A stretch of 45,744 nt of DNA from Bacteroidota bacterium (GCA_018266765.1 JAFDZU010000020.1:28153-73896); one strand, 5' to 3'. Positions 885 through 11,365 are shown, counted from the stretch's first letter. Translations and numbers: made by a program. Notes: generated from the sequence alone by a model not told the origin.

Positions 885-3800
885 TTATTTCACCACGGTC
901 ATTGTCCTCGAATCAAAAAACAATCCTGCTTGAAGTACGTAATAATAAACACCGGCATTCAATTCTTCTGCTGATAAATCAATACTATATGTTCCACCAA
1001 TAAGTGTTTGTGAGCCATCTAAAACTGTTCTCACAAGTGAACCTGTCATCGAATAAACTTTAAGTGTTACAGGAGTAGTTTCTTGTGTTGTAAATTCAAT
1101 TGAAGTCGAATTATTAAACGGATTTGGTCTATTTTGAGATAAAGATGGATTAGCTGTTGAATATTTAAGAGTTGTAATTGTACATTTACCACTTGCTATA
1201 AATGGAGATCGTCCTGCAAGCGGAATAATATCAATAAATTGCAATGAATCCGTATGAAAATTACTTGCTACAACCCTCATCGGAGAAATGAGTGTATCAG
1301 GCACCGTAACTAAGAATTTGAGTGATGCAATCTCTCCTGCTTTTACATCGTCCATATTCGTATAATTCAACTGAACAGATCCAAGTGTTGGAGCAACTCC
1401 AAGATTTTGAGTAATTGGAGAGCTTGCAGATAAAAATTTTAGCATTCGTGCATTATAATTGATATTTACATCAAAATTCATAGCTTTCAGCCAATACGTA
1501 GTTCCTTTATATGTAGCTGAAAAATCTTTTTCAATGAAAACCGGGATTGTTACCGTGTCACCAAGAGTCCCGGCAAGGGAATCCGGGAAAATAAAGTTTT
1601 TAGAAAACGCTAAACCCATAGGAACATCAGGAGCATATCCCATACCTGCAACCGAAGTAGAGTCAAACACAGTACATGGAACAATTGAACGAGCTTTCAA
1701 TTGAGGAGGAGCTGGTAATTCACGTGATGGGCAGAAACGAACTGTAAACACAATCGAATCTCCAACATTCAACGGCTGATTGCTTGGAGGAACACTACCG
1801 ACTATTGACATGTCTTTTCCAAGTCCGGGCAGTGAGTCAACAACTACTGGAACATCTCCCGTGTTTTTTACTGTAATTGTTCTATCAGCACAATCTAAAA
1901 CACGAACACTATCAAAATTAACAGTATCAATAATAGTAATTTCAGTTTTCTGGACTATCACTCTTCCTTCATCCGCACCGGCGAGAATCTGAAACAAAAT
2001 CGTTTGTTCAGTGTCAAATGAGATACTATCAACTGTAATTTTTTTGTCGGCTCGCTGTCCTGTAATTGATATGAATTTTGCAATTAAAAATGGTTGTAAA
2101 GAATCAACAGCACAGAAATTTTTGAGAATAAATTCAGTTCCTACTGTTGGAGAAGATTTTGCAATTATAGAGGGTGTGTACTGCGGGAAACATTTTGTAT
2201 TCAAATAGTTGGATGTAGCACCTACATAACGAAATTCGGTAGTATCATACCCCAAACGGCAGAAAATATCAACTAAATTTGCAGGAATTTGCCGAGTACT
2301 AAATATAGGAACAAACAAAGTATCGCACGTAGTAATTTTAAAAGTATCAATCTCAATTCGTTTATTATCAAAATTGAAATCTAAGCCAAAAGCCGGTGCA
2401 AAACCATTTCCGGAAACCAAAACCGTTGTATCAATATCTTTGCAGGGATTACTTACATACAATAACATTTTTGCTGAATATGTTCTATGGGCACGAGGTT
2501 TGAAATCAACCCTAATTCTAAGAGTATCTCCCGGATTCAACGTAATTGGGAACGGTCTTCCCTTTGTGTCAGAATACGTAAATACTCGTTCGTCCGGCTT
2601 GAAACTAACTGAATCAATTATAACAGGATATTGGTCAGGGTTTGTCAAAATCGAAGGAATTATTACAGTAATAATTCGAGGTGTACTAATTGTATCCACA
2701 CGAGCGGGAACAAACACATTCGCTGGAGGTGACGGTTTATAAAGCAATGAACGTTTTCCTAATAAATATACTTCATACGCTGCGTTCCAACCACTTCCAC
2801 TTGCATTTAAGTGCATTCGAGCTGCACAATCAACATATTTATCCTCGGCAGGTGTTCTAGGGCAGAACGTTATTCTTACTGTATCTCGAGTATCAGGTGG
2901 TATTGAAAACGGGAATGTTCCTTTAGGAGAAAATGCAGAAGTCCATGTCCAAAATTGAGGTGTTCCTCCGGGTATATTCAGACTGTCAATCCATAATGAA
3001 TCTACACTCATTGGATGAACAAGTGATTGATTCACAAGTGGTAGTTCACGGGTAATACAATCACAAGGTTTTACAAAACCCCAGTTTATGAGAGAAAGTG
3101 GAGCTTCAAGTTTTAAAATAATTCCTCGCGCTTTTAAATTTCCGGTTGAACTTATCGAAGGGCAAGGCGATTCAGAGAAAACTTTAACTTGACCATCATA
3201 TGTCTGAGCAGCAGTTGGAGCAAACTCTAACACAACTTGAATAGAATCACGTGGTTGAAGTATAGTTTTCATCGGACGACTTGCAGAAATCATTGTAAAC
3301 CCCGGGGGTATATACAAACTGTCCACTCGTACTGGTAATATCGAAATATTCTCAATAGTTATGGAATCTCTTTTTTTATCACCGACTTCTAATGTACCAA
3401 ATACAGTTAGTGTAGTAATACTTAATTTGGGTGTGGCTGATGTGCCAAATAAAGGAGCTGCCCACTGTACATTTTGTGATATATATTTTAAATATGCTCG
3501 GTCAGCTCGGTCTTGAGTTACATCATTCGGAGTATATCGGAAAATAAAACGAGCGGACTTCCCTACCGGAACGGTTATAGAAGCCGGGATTGATATAGGA
3601 TCTATAATAGTATATCTTCCTGATGGATCGCTTAATTGAATTTGAGATAGAATTTGATCTGTATTCACGATATTAATAATATCGAGAGTATCAAGTGCTG
3701 ATTGACAACCTACTACGTTTTCAGTTCGCATTACAATAGGGTCATATCTAAACGTTTCGATAACCCCGCGTCCTTGAATTGGAATACAAGCCGAAGTAAA

Positions 3801-5906
3801 ACACCTCTGCTCAAACAAACAAAGCTGATCTACATACAATGAATCTGTTATAGGACGGAAAGTAATTGGAATTGAAACCGTTTCGCCAGTTTTAATTGTA
3901 ACAGATTTAGCTCCTGTCAGAAAAAATACTTCTCCTGATTTTGGATAAAACGAAACTCGTAAATCATCGGGTGCAGAGTTTTTGCACGTTACTGTCATAG
4001 TTTTTTCTTGTCCTACTATTACATTTCCAAAATCTGCAAGTTTAGTTGACCATTCTACTTTTGCTTCATACCCTCGCCCGCTCACATAAATTTTACGGAT
4101 AATTGAACAATTCGAACCTTGAATCCTAGCAATAATAGTTATTGAATCTTTAAATAATCCTGAACGATTAGGGAAAAATCTGATAACATTTTGTTGATAT
4201 CCTGTATTGGGTAATAACGAAAATGGAAATCGTAAACTCCTTCCTGTGAATCCGTTTGGAATAATTATAGTATCAACAGTAACGGGTCGTGACGTTAAAT
4301 TTTTCCAAGTCCAAAGAATTGGATTACTTAATTGTCCTATGCACTCAGTTCCAAATTTTGCTGAATCAAGACGTTTCGTTCCACCGGCATCAAAAACACC
4401 CACTACATCCCTAACAACTCCTCGCAATGGGATAACGACAATGCCCGGACATTTATCATCCGATAACGTTTTGAGTGTATCATAATACAATCCTGATGTG
4501 TCTTTGGAATAAAATCGTACAGTAATATCAATACATTTTCCAATGCCAATTGTTTGCGGAAATGTTGCTGGACTAACTACTTGAAAAAGCTGAGGATATC
4601 GAACAGTAAAACCATTGAGGGTGAGTGGTCGAGCCGCCCCTACACTATCGCTTTGATTACAAATTCTAAATGTAGTGTCTTTATATAACTGTTCCTTACA
4701 CCCGGCAAAGAGAGTGTCAAAATTAATGGTATTAATAGTATACCGTAGTTCTGTAAGTCGAGTTAATCTAATTGGAATAAGAATTTGAGTACCGCATGAA
4801 TTGGTTGGTATAATTTTTAAATCTGCAATTATATTTCCAATGAGTGAAGAGTTGAATCGAACTTGAAAAGTGAAGGGCACTTGAGGATTTAGTGTTGCTG
4901 AATTTTGAGATAAACTAAAAGCCGAGGCATCTCGATTATCAATTCTCATTGTAACAGAACTTCCACAAATTGAAGTATCCATTATTGTTATGTTGTAAAC
5001 ATCTGTATTTACACATTTAATAGTTCCTGAAATACTCGTTGGAGAAGCCACTACTGTTTGGGGAACTGTCCGAGTAGATTTTTGGCAACTTGCACCCGAT
5101 TTCATTTCTCCTACATATCCCTTACCAGTTGCATCGCAGAGATTTATAACTCCTGCCGCTTCATTACAACGGTAATATACCAACAGTCCGGCTTCGTTGC
5201 CATTTAATTCTTTATCTTTTTGACAAATGATTTCTGTAGGTGTAAGTACGCGAGTCCATATTCTGATTTCATCCATTTGACCTTTGAAATTCTGAAACTG
5301 TGATTTATTATCTGAAAGTCCATTACAACTACCAATTTGTAACGGTACTTTTGACTGTTGTTTTTCATCAGTTGGACGAAGATAACTTGTAGGATATAGA
5401 GGATTATTTGCAGCAGCTACTTGAATTCCGTTAATGTATAAATAGCATGTTTTTCCAGCCCCATCAAAAACAGCCGAAAAATGTGTCCATTTACCGAAAT
5501 ATGCTCCAAAAGGATACCGAACGATGGTATTATCGGTACTTTTAAGTTTAGTTCCATCTCCATTAACTTCAAAAACAAGCTCATCATTCGGAGAAATATA
5601 CACTACCCAAACATCATTTACATCAAATGAAGGTCCCCACAAACCACCGATAAATTGCTGTTTTCCGGCTACTCGCGTAAGATTTAACCAACCTTCAAAT
5701 GTCAGTGCGGTTTGAGTTTTATCTTTAATTGAATATTTAGTAACATCAACATAATGCGTACCTTTATCACTGAATACTGTCAAAGTAAGTGCCGGTGAAT
5801 TATTGCACGATTTATCTTTATCACAAGATGCAGGAAATTGTGCTTTTAAACCTGTGAATGTAAATAAAAATAAGATAAGAAAGCGCGTAATTGTAGAAAT
5901 TTTCAT
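885..5906 (-). CDS. Secreted LamG / choice-of-anchor-D repeat protein with T9SS sorting domain
   Basis: A 1673-residue exported protein. Residues 1-22 are a Sec signal peptide ending GLKA|Q. Residues about 50-270 form a LamG/concanavalin-like domain (TFEGWLNL, WTHFSAVFDG, GQMDEIRIWTRVLT). About 280-1170 and 1310-1430 are many Ig-like ASPM/SPD-2/HYDIN (choice-of-anchor D) repeats with the recurring pattern of a short 'FG.v..G....v.i.N' strand followed by a P-rich strand. Stretches near 1180-1300 and 1440-1570 look cohesin-like. The last 85 residues (NRPNPFNNSTSIEF ... GVYYYVLQ) are a type A T9SS domain, so the protein should cross the outer membrane and stay on the surface or be released. AAGGA lies about 10 nt before the ATG. 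It follows the DUF1501 gene by 95 bp on the same strand and may share its transcript. Its ligand is unknown. Confidence 0.85.
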   Translation of the reverse strand: MKISTITRFLILFLFTFTGLKAQFPASCDKDKSCNNSPALTLTVFSDKGTHYVDVTKYSIKDKTQTALTFEGWLNLTRVAGKQQFIGGLWGPSFDVNDVWVVYISPNDELVFEVNGDGTKLKSTDNTIVRYPFGAYFGKWTHFSAVFDGAGKTCYLYINGIQVAAANNPLYPTSYLRPTDEKQQSKVPLQIGSCNGLSDNKSQFQNFKGQMDEIRIWTRVLTPTEIICQKDKELNGNEAGLLVYYRCNEAAGVINLCDATGKGYVGEMKSGASCQKSTRTVPQTVVASPTSISGTIKCVNTDVYNITIMDTSICGSSVTMRIDNRDASAFSLSQNSATLNPQVPFTFQVRFNSSLIGNIIADLKIIPTNSCGTQILIPIRLTRLTELRYTINTINFDTLFAGCKEQLYKDTTFRICNQSDSVGAARPLTLNGFTVRYPQLFQVVSPATFPQTIGIGKCIDITVRFYSKDTSGLYYDTLKTLSDDKCPGIVVIPLRGVVRDVVGVFDAGGTKRLDSAKFGTECIGQLSNPILWTWKNLTSRPVTVDTIIIPNGFTGRSLRFPFSLLPNTGYQQNVIRFFPNRSGLFKDSITIIARIQGSNCSIIRKIYVSGRGYEAKVEWSTKLADFGNVIVGQEKTMTVTCKNSAPDDLRVSFYPKSGEVFFLTGAKSVTIKTGETVSIPITFRPITDSLYVDQLCLFEQRCFTSACIPIQGRGVIETFRYDPIVMRTENVVGCQSALDTLDIINIVNTDQILSQIQLSDPSGRYTIIDPISIPASITVPVGKSARFIFRYTPNDVTQDRADRAYLKYISQNVQWAAPLFGTSATPKLSITTLTVFGTLEVGDKKRDSITIENISILPVRVDSLYIPPGFTMISASRPMKTILQPRDSIQVVLEFAPTAAQTYDGQVKVFSESPCPSISSTGNLKARGIILKLEAPLSLINWGFVKPCDCITRELPLVNQSLVHPMSVDSLWIDSLNIPGGTPQFWTWTSAFSPKGTFPFSIPPDTRDTVRITFCPRTPAEDKYVDCAARMHLNASGSGWNAAYEVYLLGKRSLLYKPSPPANVFVPARVDTISTPRIITVIIPSILTNPDQYPVIIDSVSFKPDERVFTYSDTKGRPFPITLNPGDTLRIRVDFKPRAHRTYSAKMLLYVSNPCKDIDTTVLVSGNGFAPAFGLDFNFDNKRIEIDTFKITTCDTLFVPIFSTRQIPANLVDIFCRLGYDTTEFRYVGATSNYLNTKCFPQYTPSIIAKSSPTVGTEFILKNFCAVDSLQPFLIAKFISITGQRADKKITVDSISFDTEQTILFQILAGADEGRVIVQKTEITIIDTVNFDSVRVLDCADRTITVKNTGDVPVVVDSLPGLGKDMSIVGSVPPSNQPLNVGDSIVFTVRFCPSRELPAPPQLKARSIVPCTVFDSTSVAGMGYAPDVPMGLAFSKNFIFPDSLAGTLGDTVTIPVFIEKDFSATYKGTTYWLKAMNFDVNINYNARMLKFLSASSPITQNLGVAPTLGSVQLNYTNMDDVKAGEIASLKFLVTVPDTLISPMRVVASNFHTDSLQFIDIIPLAGRSPFIASGKCTITTLKYSTANPSLSQNRPNPFNNSTSIEFTTQETTPVTLKVYSMTGSLVRTVLDGSQTLIGGTYSIDLSAEELNAGVYYYVLQAGLFFDSRTMTVVK

Positions 5907-6001
5907 AAGAGTAAAATCCTTCCTATCTCGATAAATAAATTCGGCGATACAATTTTGAGTAAAAAATCAAATAGCAATTTAGATAAAGATTTAGATTGTA
6001 A

Positions 6002-7585
6002 TCAACGTTCTATAATAATATTTCCAACTAAATATCTTCCACTTATTTTAACAGTACAAATATAACTTCCATTTGGAGATGTTAGTTCCACCGGAATACG
6101 CTGAGAACCAACTTCTAATAAACCGGTAAATAAAACTTCATTCGTTCTTCCGAGAATATCAGTTATAGAAATTTCTACTTCTGATTGTTTTTTAAGTTCA
6201 AATGAAATTTCAGTTTTACCCGATGTTGGATTGGGAGTTATCAAGAGTTCTTGAGTAGGAAAATCTGGCATTTCTGTTACACCGGTTATCGGAGATTGCA
6301 GTACAGGAAGAGCAACAAGTGAAGGATCATTTAACAAAGATCGAGTCTCTTCTTTGCTTGCTCCAAACCAAGTTTGAAGTACATCAGCGTAGACTTTCCG
6401 ATAATCATATTGATATTGTACATCATTATTATTATTGAGGTCAGATAAATTAGGATTATTTCCAAATACACCACCATTTACACGCGTTCCAAAAACAAAT
6501 TGTACAGAAGCAGCTCCGTGGTCTGTTCCTCTACTTCCATTTTCGCTCGGACGACGACCAAATTCAGAAACTGTAAGTCCAACAACTCGATTGGCAAATC
6601 CTTGTTGCAAGGCATCTCCGATAAATTGGCTAATTCCACTTGACAGTGCATTCAATAAACTTGGATGATTTCCACCTAAACTAACATCTTGTTGCTGAAC
6701 ATGAGTATCAAATCCTCCCATAGAACACATAAATACTTTAGAACGTATTCCACCGGAAATAAGCCGAGCAATCAGTTTCATTTGCTGTGCAAATCCTTGT
6801 GAATAGTTAATGGTGTTCTTTCCTTGATCGAAAGCACTTTTCACTATTTGAGAATATTTATCAGACTGTAATGCTATAGTACGTATATAGTTAAATTCAT
6901 TAGCAAAAGCACTATTCCCATCCATTGCTTGTTCATCGGGAGATAGTCCTTGTCCAAGTTTAAAAAACGAATCGGGGTCAGTCAGGGCAATTCCCATATC
7001 ACCTTTTTGGCTCTGGAATGCTAATGAAAGTGTTCCACCAATTTGAACACACAGAGGATGTTCAGGAATTTCAGTTGGGAAATTAGTAAGACGATTTGAG
7101 AAATATCGTCCAATCCATCCATCAGTTAGTCGAACATTCGGATCAGAATTATTAAAACCTGATAGCCAAATATCCGTTGAACGAAAGTGAGATAGATTTG
7201 GATTCTCATAACCAATACCTTGTATAACAGCAAGCCGGCCTGAATCTAAAAGCCCCATAAATCCATTACCATAAACATTATCAACCAATGCCGGATGCAA
7301 ATAAAAATTTGAATTTGCATATCTTTTAGCTTTGTCTTTCGGAACTGAAATTTCCGGACGAAGTCTGTAATAATTATCATCTTCTGCGGGAATAACTGTA
7401 TTAAGACCGTCATTACCTCCAAAAAGTTGAATAATAATTAAAATTGCATCATTCTCTTCGGCTTGTGCACCTAAAATTCCAACCGGAGATTTAGCATAAA
7501 CAGGCATTCCGCCTAACATTTGAGGAGCAAGTGCGGCACTAGCGGCAATTGCAGCTGATGACTGAATAAAATTTCTACGTTTCAT
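6002..7585 (-). CDS. DUF1501 family protein with Tat signal and T9SS C-terminal domain
   Basis: 527 residues. The N-terminus MKRRNFIQSSAAIAASAAL has the twin-arginine RRxFI motif followed by a mild Ala-rich hydrophobic region, as in a Tat signal peptide. DUF1501 hallmarks follow: IQLFGGNDGLNTVIP, SMGGFDTHVQQQ, VSEFGRRPSENGSRGTDHG. The family is placed near the alkaline phosphatase/sulfatase superfamily, and the Asp-His pairs would fit a metal site, but no activity is established. Residues about 447-527 (ITPNPTSGKTEISFEL ... GSYICTVKI) are a T9SS type A sorting domain. An AAGGA sequence sits about 10 nt upstream of ATG 7585. The gene starts 21 bp after the DUF1800 stop, so the two are almost certainly co-transcribed. 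This pairing recurs across Bacteroidota and Planctomycetota. Confidence 0.9.
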   Translation of the reverse strand: MKRRNFIQSSAAIAASAALAPQMLGGMPVYAKSPVGILGAQAEENDAILIIIQLFGGNDGLNTVIPAEDDNYYRLRPEISVPKDKAKRYANSNFYLHPALVDNVYGNGFMGLLDSGRLAVIQGIGYENPNLSHFRSTDIWLSGFNNSDPNVRLTDGWIGRYFSNRLTNFPTEIPEHPLCVQIGGTLSLAFQSQKGDMGIALTDPDSFFKLGQGLSPDEQAMDGNSAFANEFNYIRTIALQSDKYSQIVKSAFDQGKNTINYSQGFAQQMKLIARLISGGIRSKVFMCSMGGFDTHVQQQDVSLGGNHPSLLNALSSGISQFIGDALQQGFANRVVGLTVSEFGRRPSENGSRGTDHGAASVQFVFGTRVNGGVFGNNPNLSDLNNNNDVQYQYDYRKVYADVLQTWFGASKEETRSLLNDPSLVALPVLQSPITGVTEMPDFPTQELLITPNPTSGKTEISFELKKQSEVEISITDILGRTNEVLFTGLLEVGSQRIPVELTSPNGSYICTVKISGRYLVGNIIIER

Positions 7586-7606
7586 AATTATTGTTCCTTC
7601 AAAATA

Positions 7607-9187
7607 TTAGCATAAATGAAAATCGGGAGCTTTAATAAATGCCATCAATACAGCTTTAATTCCTCGTGCTGCTGATGTTCCGTTTGTTAACATTGCTTGC
7701 CATTCATAGCTTGGCTGTTTTTGCAGAAGTGCTTCTTCGAGATAATACTTGTGTCGCGAACCGGCAACAGATTTTGGCAAGAAAAACATTTCGAGGGCAG
7801 TTGTTAACTTATCTGCATCTGTATAATCGGGAAATCGTTTCGCCAAATCCAATAATTCTTGGTCAGTCATAGCAGATACAATTGCACTTGCAAATTGTCG
7901 ACGATTCGGGTATGTTTTTGTACTGATCCACCTACGATATCCTTCCCATCCGGATACATTTGGTGGATCTATAAGTGTTTGTTCCATTGATGTCATAGAA
8001 CTTCCTGCAGCAGTAATAAATGGCTTGGAAAGTTGACGAGCAAATCCTACGACATATTCGACTGGTGTTTTAATTTGAATACCAATGTTCGCTTCATCAA
8101 AGAAATGAGCACTTTTTAGAAGTATAGCAATCAGTGGTCTTATTTCAAAATTATTTTGCTTGAATACAGTTGCCATTTCTTCGATAACATTTTCATCTGA
8201 AGCAGTAGGACTGCTATACACAAAATATCTATAAACTTTACGAGAAATAAAACGTGCGATAGCATCTCCTCTGATATCAAAAATAATATCAATAAGTTTA
8301 TTGATTTCTTGCGTTTTTACCAAATGTTCAGTATTTGTATCGGCATCTCGGGCTACTATACTCGACCCAAGAACTTGCTTTGAACCTGTATCATGGTCAA
8401 GTGGGCTAAAATACGTTTCATAATCACCATTAGGCCTAGGTTCGTCGTTGAATTGCCCTACGCGCCATCCAGTTAAAACTCGTGCGGCTTCTTTTACATC
8501 ACCTTCAGAGTATTGACCTAAGCCACATGTAAATAGTTCCATTAACTCACGACCATAATTTTCATTCGGTCTTTTTCTTGTATTCAATATTCCACCAAGA
8601 TAAACAAGCATAGCACCGTCTACGGTAATATCTTTTGCAAATTGACGAAAATTACCAAGGCGATGTTCTCGAATTAATTTATTCTGACGATAAAGTAATT
8701 GTGGAGGAATATATCCGCCATCAATAGAAAATTCAGTCGTAAAATGGCTACTCCAGAATTGTGTTAATTTTTCGACGAACGAACCACTTTCAGTTCGCAT
8801 AAGTTCTGCCCACCATTTCACCAAATCGCCATAATATGAACTCCATTGTCCTTCGATAGAATTGCGTGTAAATATATCTGCTCCTTGTGGGTTTTCTGTG
8901 ATTTTATCAACCCAATTGGGTGCAACAGGTGGTATATCATTACCATTACCTAACATAAGTTCCACTGCTTCTTCGGCTGTTTTTCCAACGAGTTGATTAG
9001 CCATAAACACAGTAGGTGCAAATGTTATTCTTCGTAAAAGATGATAGACTTGAGCCAATGTAAGCGGCGTGGTTATTGGTTCTAATCCGGTTGAAAGAGC
9101 AGTTCTTTCTGGATTTGAGTGTTCGGCAGATTGCAACATCTCTTTGTTTTCATTTTTTAAAAAAGAGAAAAAGGAACGTCTGTCCAT
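7607..9187 (-). CDS. DUF1800 family protein, partner of DUF1501
   Basis: 526 residues from ATG 9187. A GTG four codons further upstream is open, but the strong ribosome binding site GGAGGT (9192-9197) lies between it and the ATG, so the ATG is chosen. The body matches DUF1800: YHLLRRITFAPT near the N-terminus, a region LTQFWSSHFTTE, the block NENYGRELMELFTCGLGQYSE, the metal-site-like LDHDTGSKQVLG, and the C-terminal DPPNVSGWEGYRRWIS. Biochemical function is unknown. The N-terminus MDRRSFFSFLKNE resembles a Tat n-region, yet no hydrophobic stretch follows, so it has no convincing export signal of its own. It is the first gene of the likely DUF1800-DUF1501 unit and would need its partner for export if it acts outside the cytoplasm. 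Confidence 0.9.
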   Translation of the reverse strand: MDRRSFFSFLKNENKEMLQSAEHSNPERTALSTGLEPITTPLTLAQVYHLLRRITFAPTVFMANQLVGKTAEEAVELMLGNGNDIPPVAPNWVDKITENPQGADIFTRNSIEGQWSSYYGDLVKWWAELMRTESGSFVEKLTQFWSSHFTTEFSIDGGYIPPQLLYRQNKLIREHRLGNFRQFAKDITVDGAMLVYLGGILNTRKRPNENYGRELMELFTCGLGQYSEGDVKEAARVLTGWRVGQFNDEPRPNGDYETYFSPLDHDTGSKQVLGSSIVARDADTNTEHLVKTQEINKLIDIIFDIRGDAIARFISRKVYRYFVYSSPTASDENVIEEMATVFKQNNFEIRPLIAILLKSAHFFDEANIGIQIKTPVEYVVGFARQLSKPFITAAGSSMTSMEQTLIDPPNVSGWEGYRRWISTKTYPNRRQFASAIVSAMTDQELLDLAKRFPDYTDADKLTTALEMFFLPKSVAGSRHKYYLEEALLQKQPSYEWQAMLTNGTSAARGIKAVLMAFIKAPDFHLC

Positions 9188-9191
9188 AGTG

Positions 9192-9197
9192 ACCTCC
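9192..9197 (-). promoter_or_regulatory. Ribosome binding site of the DUF1800 gene
   Basis: The minus strand reads GGAGGT, followed four bases later by ATG at 9187. It is one of the strongest Shine-Dalgarno matches in the window and decides the start against the in-frame GTG at 9199, which overlaps it. Confidence 0.75.
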
Positions 9198-9293
9198 ACG
9201 ATATTAAAAAAAAGAAAAATACACTTTTCACATTAACAATTCATCATTAAAAGTAACAGTATTTAACTATAAAAAGTTACGAAATGAGTCGTT

Positions 9294-11321
9294 TTATTTA
9301 TTTAAAGGCGTTTTTACTTCAAGTGATACCGTACGGCAATAATAACGCCCTTCAGGTAAGTTATTGTCATACGGTAGCGAAGAAGCACCAAGCCCTACTA
9401 CTGAAGAAATATTTGCTTGCGGTTTTATTGAAAGCAAAAAGTCATTTACACTCTTTGCACGAGCAGTTGAAAGTTGTTGATTATACTCTATTTCGCCTAA
9501 TTTATCGGTTGAACCGGTAATTGAACTAACTGAAGTTGGCTTCATTGCTTCATTTACAAATTTATTCATCATTTCTTTGTTTTGGTCTGAAATATCTGAA
9601 CGATTGAAATCAAATACAATTAGACTTAGTCGGCTTACTTCAAATTGATTACGAGATTTTATTATTGGAAAATAACATTCTGCCGTTACAACCGATCCAT
9701 CGTTCTGTGTAATGGACATTTGTCCATATAATGAATCTTTTACACTGATATCATTTCCAATCTTAGAGGTTTCTTCATTTGTAATTTCTAAAGGCAAAGA
9801 AGTTGGAGGTGCACCGTTTCCGGTTGCTTTTTTGAGAAGTGTCCCTTTGTATGACATCTCCATATTCCAAGAATTTGCATTTTCTGGATGGAGCATACTA
9901 ACAGAAAAAATCTGCTTGTTTTGTACCGGAGCAAATTCTAAAAACCTTGAATGAACAACAGGCGAAAGCATGAATGCATCTTCAGAGGATAATTCAGCAC
10001 GCCTATTTTCTTCATTGCCTTCTTTATATTTTTGATTCGACGGTAATTCAGGAATATCTCGTGTTTGAAGTATAATTTGACTATTTGAGATTCCCCACGT
10101 TTGTGTTAAAAAATTAGCAATTGCTTGAGCGCGTTCTTTTGCAAGTACTGTTCTTTGAGCGGAAGTTGACATTTCTCTACCATCAGTAGTACCTGTAATT
10201 ATTATTTTTCTTTTGGGATTGCTCGTTAGTCGTTTTCCCAATAAATTGAGCATTGTATAATAAGTAGGCAATGTTTCTTTCGGTAAACTACTTTCAGAAA
10301 AAGTTGTTTTATCTTTGATAGTTACAAAATATCGTTCTCGAACTACAGCACTCGCACTATCAAAGAAAATATATGGCAATAATGGAAAAGTTTGAGTTAC
10401 AATGGTTTCCTGAACTTGCAAAGGAACTGTACTCACAGATTGAAGCACTACTTGAGGTGGAAGTGGTTTTGGAATTTCTACGATAACCGGTGGAGGTGGA
10501 GGAGGTGGTTCAGGAGCCGGCGGTGGTGGTAGTTTTACTTTTTCTTCTCCAAATTCATACCGTACACCAACACCAATATTCAGTACATTTACATTCCAAT
10601 CTGATGTTGAAACGATAGAACCAATTCCATATTGAAAACTAATTTCAGGATAAATAAAAATATTGGGTTGCATTTCGAGATTAACACCAATTCCTATTAT
10701 ACCTGAATATGCAGTAGATATTCCCGGTACTGAACCATTAAACAAAGTATGCTTACGTACTCCTTCGGGAAAAAGCACACCAGATGGTGATAATATTTCT
10801 TCAGTTTGTGTATAGTCTTTCCCTACGAGGGCATTTCCTACATTAAATCCAATCCGTGAATAGAATGGAATATCTTCGAGGGGATAAATTTTTGCACCAA
10901 TATCAAGAAGAATATACTGTAAGTTTGCTGTATAAACATGTTGCAGAACTAACGGAACATATTGATTATTCTGGGTATTGAGAACTTGGTACGGTGATGT
11001 TTCAGTGGTAAGCAACGCTGGTCGAGAACTAAATATCAGTCGTCCGGATGCTTCTATAAAATTATGAATTAATTTATAATCAAATGTAATTCCAGCAAAA
11101 TAACCAGAAGATTGTCCTTTAGTAAAAACTCCACAATCTTCCGAACCTAACAATACAGGAAGTGACGTTGAATTCCAGATACGAGAATAACCTCCAATTG
11201 CTCCCACAAAATATTCTCCACGAGCTTTTGGCATCGAATCAGTGAGAATTTCCTTAGAGTAACTGTCAGATATGCTAAGCAGTAATATCAACAAGACAAC
11301 AACTGTATAAAATACTTTCAT
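9294..11321 (-). CDS. Outer-membrane protein with beta-barrel and two tandem OmpA-like domains
   Basis: 675 residues from ATG 11321, chosen because MKVFYTVVVLLILLLSISDSYS is a proper signal peptide and because a longer TTG start at 11360 would lie inside the putative -7 box. After the signal, about 235 residues of alternating strands (FVGAIGGYSRIW, LLDIGAKIYP, IGIGVNLEMQPNIFIYPEISFQYG, VGVRYEF) look like an eight-stranded outer-membrane barrel. A proline-rich hinge at about 265-289 follows. Then come two OmpA-type domains: one at about 315-460 (ITGTTDGREMSTSAQRTVLAKERAQAI) and one at about 570-670 (FDFNRSDIS, ITGSTDKLGEIEYNQQLSTARAKSV). OmpA domains bind peptidoglycan, so the protein probably anchors the outer membrane to the wall. 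Having two is uncommon. It is 175 bp downstream of ligA in the same direction and probably has its own promoter. Confidence 0.85.
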   Translation of the reverse strand: MKVFYTVVVLLILLLSISDSYSKEILTDSMPKARGEYFVGAIGGYSRIWNSTSLPVLLGSEDCGVFTKGQSSGYFAGITFDYKLIHNFIEASGRLIFSSRPALLTTETSPYQVLNTQNNQYVPLVLQHVYTANLQYILLDIGAKIYPLEDIPFYSRIGFNVGNALVGKDYTQTEEILSPSGVLFPEGVRKHTLFNGSVPGISTAYSGIIGIGVNLEMQPNIFIYPEISFQYGIGSIVSTSDWNVNVLNIGVGVRYEFGEEKVKLPPPPAPEPPPPPPPVIVEIPKPLPPQVVLQSVSTVPLQVQETIVTQTFPLLPYIFFDSASAVVRERYFVTIKDKTTFSESSLPKETLPTYYTMLNLLGKRLTSNPKRKIIITGTTDGREMSTSAQRTVLAKERAQAIANFLTQTWGISNSQIILQTRDIPELPSNQKYKEGNEENRRAELSSEDAFMLSPVVHSRFLEFAPVQNKQIFSVSMLHPENANSWNMEMSYKGTLLKKATGNGAPPTSLPLEITNEETSKIGNDISVKDSLYGQMSITQNDGSVVTAECYFPIIKSRNQFEVSRLSLIVFDFNRSDISDQNKEMMNKFVNEAMKPTSVSSITGSTDKLGEIEYNQQLSTARAKSVNDFLLSIKPQANISSVVGLGASSLPYDNNLPEGRYYCRTVSLEVKTPLNK

Positions 11322-11357
11322 AAGCAAATTAGAACGATGAATGAGTCGTATATTGAG

Positions 11358-11365
11358 CAAACATA
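11358..11365 (-). promoter_or_regulatory. Candidate Bacteroidota -7 box upstream of the OmpA-type gene
   Basis: The minus strand reads TATGTTTG, an exact match to TAnnTTTG, 36 nt upstream of the chosen ATG. The -33 element is weak: CTTT instead of TTTG at the expected distance. The position would give a leader of about 30 nt. Confidence 0.4.

Follow-up and report, generated by a model that had tools for sequence, protein, structure and literature searches.

Several described systems come close to the gene pair reported here. Tat hitchhikers (e.g. E. coli HybOC and PaoABC) resemble it in having one complete Tat signal and an adjacent-gene partner without a cleavable signal, and in both cases the complex is expected to be folded. 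Described T9SS cargo reaches the periplasm by Sec, and T9SS transports it folded (review PMC9251779), so a final export step for a folded pair is possible. The two families themselves, DUF1800 and DUF1501, have been recorded only as uncharacterised partners in an operon, with DUF1501 noted to carry a Tat motif (PMC5122149), and the corresponding pairs of other bacteria (e.g. beside bacterial chitin synthases) have both families in this gene order too.

We analysed a 45,744-nucleotide stretch of DNA (hereafter the window) from a Bacteroidota bacterium (GCA_018266765.1 JAFDZU010000020.1:28153-73896). It contains the following features:

9294-11360, minus strand: OmpA-family envelope protein gene, upstream of DUF1800 (PF00691, 80 bits)
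7607-9187, minus strand: DUF1800 protein gene, 526 aa, with a Shine-Dalgarno start (PF08811, 311.4 bits, cut-off 26.1)
9167-9187, minus strand: twin-arginine stump MDRRSFF of DUF1800, a Tat n-region without h- or c-region
6002-7585, minus strand: DUF1501 protein gene, 527 aa (PF07394, 78.8 bits, cut-off 27)
7493-7585, minus strand: Tat signal peptide of DUF1501, MKRRNFIQSSAAIAASAALAPQMLGGMPVYA (TIGR01409)
6011-6241, minus strand: T9SS type A C-terminal sorting domain of DUF1501, residues 449-525 (TIGR04183)
885-5906, minus strand: LamG/choice-of-anchor-D protein gene, 1673 aa, with a T9SS tail, downstream of DUF1501 (domain scans)

The pair displays two marks of a Tat hitchhiker: DUF1501 has a complete Tat signal and DUF1800 is a partner without a complete one. 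Our preferred reading, to which we give a probability of about two in three, is that the proteins fold together, that DUF1800 hitchhikes through Tat on DUF1501 and that the pair then moves outward by T9SS.

DUF1501 carries both export signals. Its N-terminus (MKRRNFIQSSAAIAASAALAPQMLGGMPVYA followed by K) contains all three Tat regions and scores 14.9 bits against TIGR01409 in the protein scan and 18.8 bits in the genome scan (cut-off 16.7). The C-terminus matches TIGR04183 at 27.2 bits (cut-off 23), while PF18962, the Pfam version of the tail, falls narrowly under its cut-off (26.3 against 27 bits). The original prediction of a twin-arginine signal joined to a T9SS type A tail is thus borne out by both profiles, with exact coordinates. 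The predicted fold of DUF1501 is similar to nucleotide pyrophosphatase/phosphodiesterases (NPP) and the alkaline phosphatase PafA (VIA Z ∼17 over 249-277 residues, at 9-12% identity) and is, in the model, that of the alkaline phosphatase superfamily (NPP, PafA, sulfatases), which DUF1501 also resembles in invariant motifs. Conserved motifs include GGNDGLNT, SHFRSTD, DTH and SEFGRR/GTDHG (invariant alignment columns), and the invariant D, S/H, DTH and TDHG motifs are candidate metal-site ligands. DUF1501 is probably metal-dependent.

DUF1800 carries neither signal in complete form. Its N-terminus, MDRRSFFSFLKNENKEM, begins with MDRRSFFSF, but after the RR the highest 12-residue Kyte-Doolittle mean is -0.63, so that there is no hydrophobic region, and the protein has no cleavable signal. 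The start codon is ATG at 9187 with GGAGG just 5' of it; the sole earlier start (GTG at 9199) is overlapped by this GGAGG, and a stop directly before it closes the frame. A missed 5' start that hides a signal peptide is ruled out by the upstream stop and the Shine-Dalgarno position. The DUF1800 gene lies upstream of DUF1501, with 21 nt from its stop to the DUF1501 start. Start, gap and hydrophobicity all agree with the initial description of a DUF1800 gene 21 bp upstream with an RRSFFSF start and no hydrophobic region. A T9SS tail on DUF1800 was considered and rejected: the PF08811 domain reaches the C-terminal end in the window protein and in most leaderless members, and the profile scan gave no TIGR04183 match on the window protein.

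The closest named relatives of DUF1800 are 80-86% identical and come from Ignavibacteria MAGs. Among solved structures, profile search found no DUF1800 relative (best E 0.093), Foldseek no structure below E 1, and VIA a best Z of 5.1 over 106 residues, which is under the noise level. AF2 of DUF1800 alone gives a confident, mostly helical model (pLDDT 94.0, pTM 0.91).

Contact between the two proteins was modelled as a read-through fusion: the 21-nt gap is in frame and TAA was read as a residue, a modelling device that makes no biological claim. The alignment held 43 naturally paired, in-frame rows, and the fusion comprises 1061 residues. For this tethered chain, AF2 gives a mean pLDDT of 84.3 and a pTM of 0.78. 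From the ordered lengths we estimate a pTM of ∼0.51 for random placement and of 0.79 at ∼5 A inter-domain error. We read this as a confidently predicted DUF1800-DUF1501 contact within the tethered fusion; structural prediction was one of the checks that the original prediction had named. A mirror-tree correlation between the families (r 0.86) was given no weight, since gene linkage alone makes for a shared history.

Neighbour clustering places OmpA-gene homologues beside the pair in 8 other loci; for the large tailed gene the number is 9. The pair therefore belongs to a recurring envelope-protein module. The window thus contains a four-gene module at 885-11360 (OmpA-like, DUF1800, DUF1501 and the giant LamG/choice-of-anchor-D T9SS gene), parts of which recur across families of the order, and one locus (L070) has both flanks. 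Hitchhiking is supported because the flanking envelope and T9SS-cargo genes are kept in related loci.

The machinery for both steps is encoded in the 3.7 Mb genome assembly, which has one TatC, SprA and PorU and at least 150 T9SS tails. Its DUF1800 genes number exactly three, as do its DUF1501 genes, and each DUF1800 is paired with a DUF1501. All three DUF1800 proteins have an RR start without a hydrophobic stretch (MDRRSFFSFL, MKRRNFLSLG and MNRRSFFKSA), and each is followed by a DUF1501 gene with a Tat signal and a T9SS tail (3/3). Just upstream of the second pair lies a gene for a PhoD-type phosphodiesterase-like protein, recognized by eye (L008:3068-4459, contig C11).

We also surveyed 173 DUF1800 genes together with their neighbourhoods; the sources were the order, the phylum, and Proteobacteria and Thermus plasmids. 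A tail was called from a DUF1501 length above 480 aa, with one exception corrected, and the classes of 11 loci (L015, L019, L020, L055, L059, L078, L084, L132, L176, L190 and L198) were amended by eye or rule; L084, which reads MDRRHFLSATLSATAATTLAGAAAAKA, was shifted by eye from stump to full Tat. Nearly all paired DUF1501 proteins have a Tat signal. Beside a tailed DUF1501, full-length DUF1800 proteins comprise 65 with a stump, 59 bare, five with a full Tat signal (L012, L013, L064, L084 and L136) and none with a Sec signal; beside an untailed one, 13 have a Sec signal and 15 are bare. Sec signals on DUF1800 are thus found in 0/129 cases with a tailed partner versus 13/28 with an untailed one. 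The Fisher p of 3e-12 for this exclusion overstates independence, since the tail corresponds to about one split on the DUF1800 tree, and a tree-aware test of Sec signal against tail offers 3 independent contrasts only and has no power. By profile, TIGR04183 occurs in 88/92 DUF1501 proteins beside leaderless (rarely Tat) DUF1800 proteins and in 0/15 of a set picked for a signal-bearing DUF1800. Natural DUF1800-DUF1501 fusion genes were absent among the 173 DUF1800 genes.

This tabulation of signals and tails, which the original prediction had called for, supports it, with Tat on DUF1501, the tail on DUF1501 only and no Sec-bearing DUF1800 beside a tail. Cleavable signals in DUF1800 homologues, which had been named as a point against the prediction, do occur, as full Tat signals in five beside a tailed DUF1501 and as Sec signals often beside an untailed one, and the point therefore holds in part. 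Hitchhiking is thus not universal in the family. The Sec or full Tat signals of relatives argue for a family that acts outside the cytoplasm.

The survey also yielded several loci of separate interest: (i) at L013:4339-9588, three tandem DUF1800 genes (two with full Tat signals, one without a signal) precede one DUF1501 gene; (ii) on a Thermus thermophilus plasmid (L193:907-3005), an IS982 transposase interrupts DUF1800 and the adjoining DUF1501 is intact; and (iii) GSPEFQRR ends the proteins of a DUF1800 subfamily that is long (650-755 aa) and Sec-exported (L071, L147, L169, L173, L174, L176 and L059/L098), most of them paired with a DUF1501 that has no tail.

For the window's pair, the hitchhiking reading would run as follows. 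DUF1800 and DUF1501 would be two subunits of one extracytoplasmic complex, and both would fold and bind in the cytoplasm, where DUF1501 could receive metal. The sole complete Tat signal, on DUF1501, would move the folded pair over the inner membrane with DUF1800 as hitchhiker, the signal would be cleaved after the Tat step and before T9SS, and the sole T9SS tail, also on DUF1501, would then move the pair across the outer membrane to the surface. The gene layout, the signals and their absence, the conservation of the stump and the tail distribution are observed and the contact is predicted, whereas co-export, the T9SS step and any role of the stump are inferences. The reading is plausible and well supported comparatively, albeit unproven. 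Against it count the RR motif, which is needless for a hitchhiker and lacking in many DUF1800 proteins, the full Tat signals of five of them, a composition about halfway between cytoplasmic and exported proteins, the near-single tree split behind the Sec/tail exclusion, and the tether in the modelled fusion.

The conserved RR is indeed a feature that simple hitchhiking does not require. An N-terminal RR-x-[FLMTV] without a hydrophobic stretch after it is present in 68/173 DUF1800 proteins versus 7/666 neighbouring ORFs; by these counts the motif is commoner than chance. The stump consensus M-[NKD]-R-R-x-[FL]-[LF] (from 58 stump proteins whose RR occupies positions 3-4) is that of DUF1501 signals, whereas post-RR hydrophobicity (5-95%) ranges from -0.49 to 0.98 in stumps and from 1.19 to 2.09 in DUF1501 signals. 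In the clade of the window's DUF1800, whose 30 distinct sequences average 46.5% domain identity with 8% of columns invariant, all 30/30 sequences have the RR, while the positions neighbouring it are at 8-14% identity and positions 10-30 after it at 8-9%, which equals chance. The arginine codons of the stump vary (AGACGT, AGAAGA and AGACGA), and selection therefore acts at the protein level. To judge from these alignments, the stump in this clade is a conserved Tat stump and no noise. Outside the clade the DUF1800 tree requires at least 11 gains or losses of it, so the partnership has no strict need of it. The full Tat signals in L012, L013, L064, L084 and L136 suggest that the stump is a reduced Tat signal.

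The stump would accordingly be a remnant of a Tat signal kept by selection, perhaps as a second TatC contact or as a means of verifying that neither subunit is missing. A fuller version of this idea is that a preassembled heterodimer passes folded first through Tat and then through T9SS, with a single signal and a single tail to direct it, while the stump acts as a functional second contact with Tat, a split or proofreading signal through which the translocase senses the presence of both subunits; we regard this as a tentative proposal, with the odds clearly against it. In the TatBC structure, the n-region binds TatC, the h-region is clamped by TatB, and there is probably one signal site per TatBC complex (PMC13323110); the stump by itself should therefore not drive transport. 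No better placed is the possibility that the stump is a decaying relic, in which an ancestral full Tat signal lost its h-region once co-export was possible and the RR goes next, with hitchhiking still in force. The tree suits such decay in that the tailed clade contains all three forms (full Tat, stump and bare), with repeated changes between them, but an RR kept by 30/30 sequences whose mean identity is 46.5%, encoded by varying arginine codons and with neighbours at 8-14%, is conservation that neutral decay should not produce. We consider the relic doubtful to the same degree.

The main rival to hitchhiking is that DUF1800 is a cytoplasmic assembly or proofreading factor, HybE-like, that binds DUF1501 once this has folded and leaves it before export. 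Most DUF1800 members have no signal, the predicted contact suits a chaperone equally, and dedicated Tat chaperones are common (PMC4273604). Composition is intermediate as well: the genome's own DUF1800 copies score 0.44, 0.85 and 0.55, with medians of 0.18 for cytoplasmic and 0.80 for exported proteins, which weakly suggests a protein about halfway between the two and mildly export-like. However, the full Tat signals in the five loci named above and the Sec-bearing relatives are unexpected for a chaperone. Known Tat chaperones are, moreover, small, unlike the 526-aa DUF1800, which is as conserved as its client. We therefore hold this rival to be unlikely, with the signal-bearing relatives as the evidence against it. 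Export of DUF1800 alone by Tat, with the stump as a very short, weakly hydrophobic signal and pairing in the periplasm, is highly improbable: the stump's M-x-RR-x-F-[FL] is identical to the DUF1501 signals in their n-region, is strictly conserved in the clade and is accompanied by full Tat signals in a few relatives, but stump hydrophobicity lies under that of DUF1501 signals, the sequence has no cleavage site, TatBC clamps the h-region besides the n-region (PMC13323110) and RR is missing from 59 homologues that likewise stand beside a tailed DUF1501.

Other proteins of the genome combine the two signals. There are 12 Tat-signal candidates, six of which have a T9SS tail, namely the three DUF1501 proteins and the following:

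L224:863-1879: intradiol-dioxygenase-like protein, Tat signal and T9SS tail
L229:949-1707: Rieske protein, Tat signal and T9SS tail
L225:1177-4497 (contig C35): Mo-hydroxylase large subunit, Tat-like signal and T9SS tail

Two of the Tat scores are under the cut-off of 16.7 (Rieske 16.2, Mo-hydroxylase 15.3), and the Rieske tail score of 23.3 is at the cut-off of 23. The Tat and T9SS route in this genome seems to have cofactor proteins as cargo. The Mo-hydroxylase gene is flanked by an XdhC-type chaperone gene and, beyond one unrelated MGMT gene, by the gene of a leaderless [2Fe-2S] subunit, and the related Mo enzyme PaoABC is a proven Tat hitchhiker whose parts are interdependent for export (PMC4273604). 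The Mo-hydroxylase and its leaderless partner form a second candidate for Tat hitchhiking plus T9SS export; the DUF pair is therefore not alone here in combining a tailed Tat protein and a leaderless partner. Homologues of the Mo-hydroxylase elsewhere in the phylum have Tat-like N-termini and no T9SS tail, and the case is therefore lineage-specific.

If the hitchhiking reading is correct, (i) enzymes of several subunits can be put together and loaded with cofactor in the cytoplasm and still be carried by T9SS; (ii) signal-based predictors overlook part of the surface proteome; and (iii) two widespread families of unknown function can be assigned to a place and to each other as partners. The conserved RR stump would also provide a clean way to test Tat n-region function without an h-region.

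Compared with known systems, the pair departs from each in part. HybOC and PaoABC complexes end at the periplasm or inner membrane, whereas DUF1501 also bears a T9SS tail; and DUF1800 keeps a conserved RR stump, unlike the partners in those complexes. The DUF pairs examined in Proteobacteria and Thermus have no T9SS tail, and in many of them DUF1800 has a Sec signal. DUF1501 resembles T9SS type A cargo in its sorting domain over the curated cut-off, with SprA and PorU in the genome, but described cargo enters by Sec, whereas DUF1501 has a Tat signal and the untailed DUF1800 would ride along. No Tat-to-T9SS relay of a partner that lacks both complete signals is described in the open-licence titles and abstracts searched. 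Both Tat hitchhiking and T9SS secretion are already known and, as far as those titles and abstracts go, the relay that would join them is the new part.
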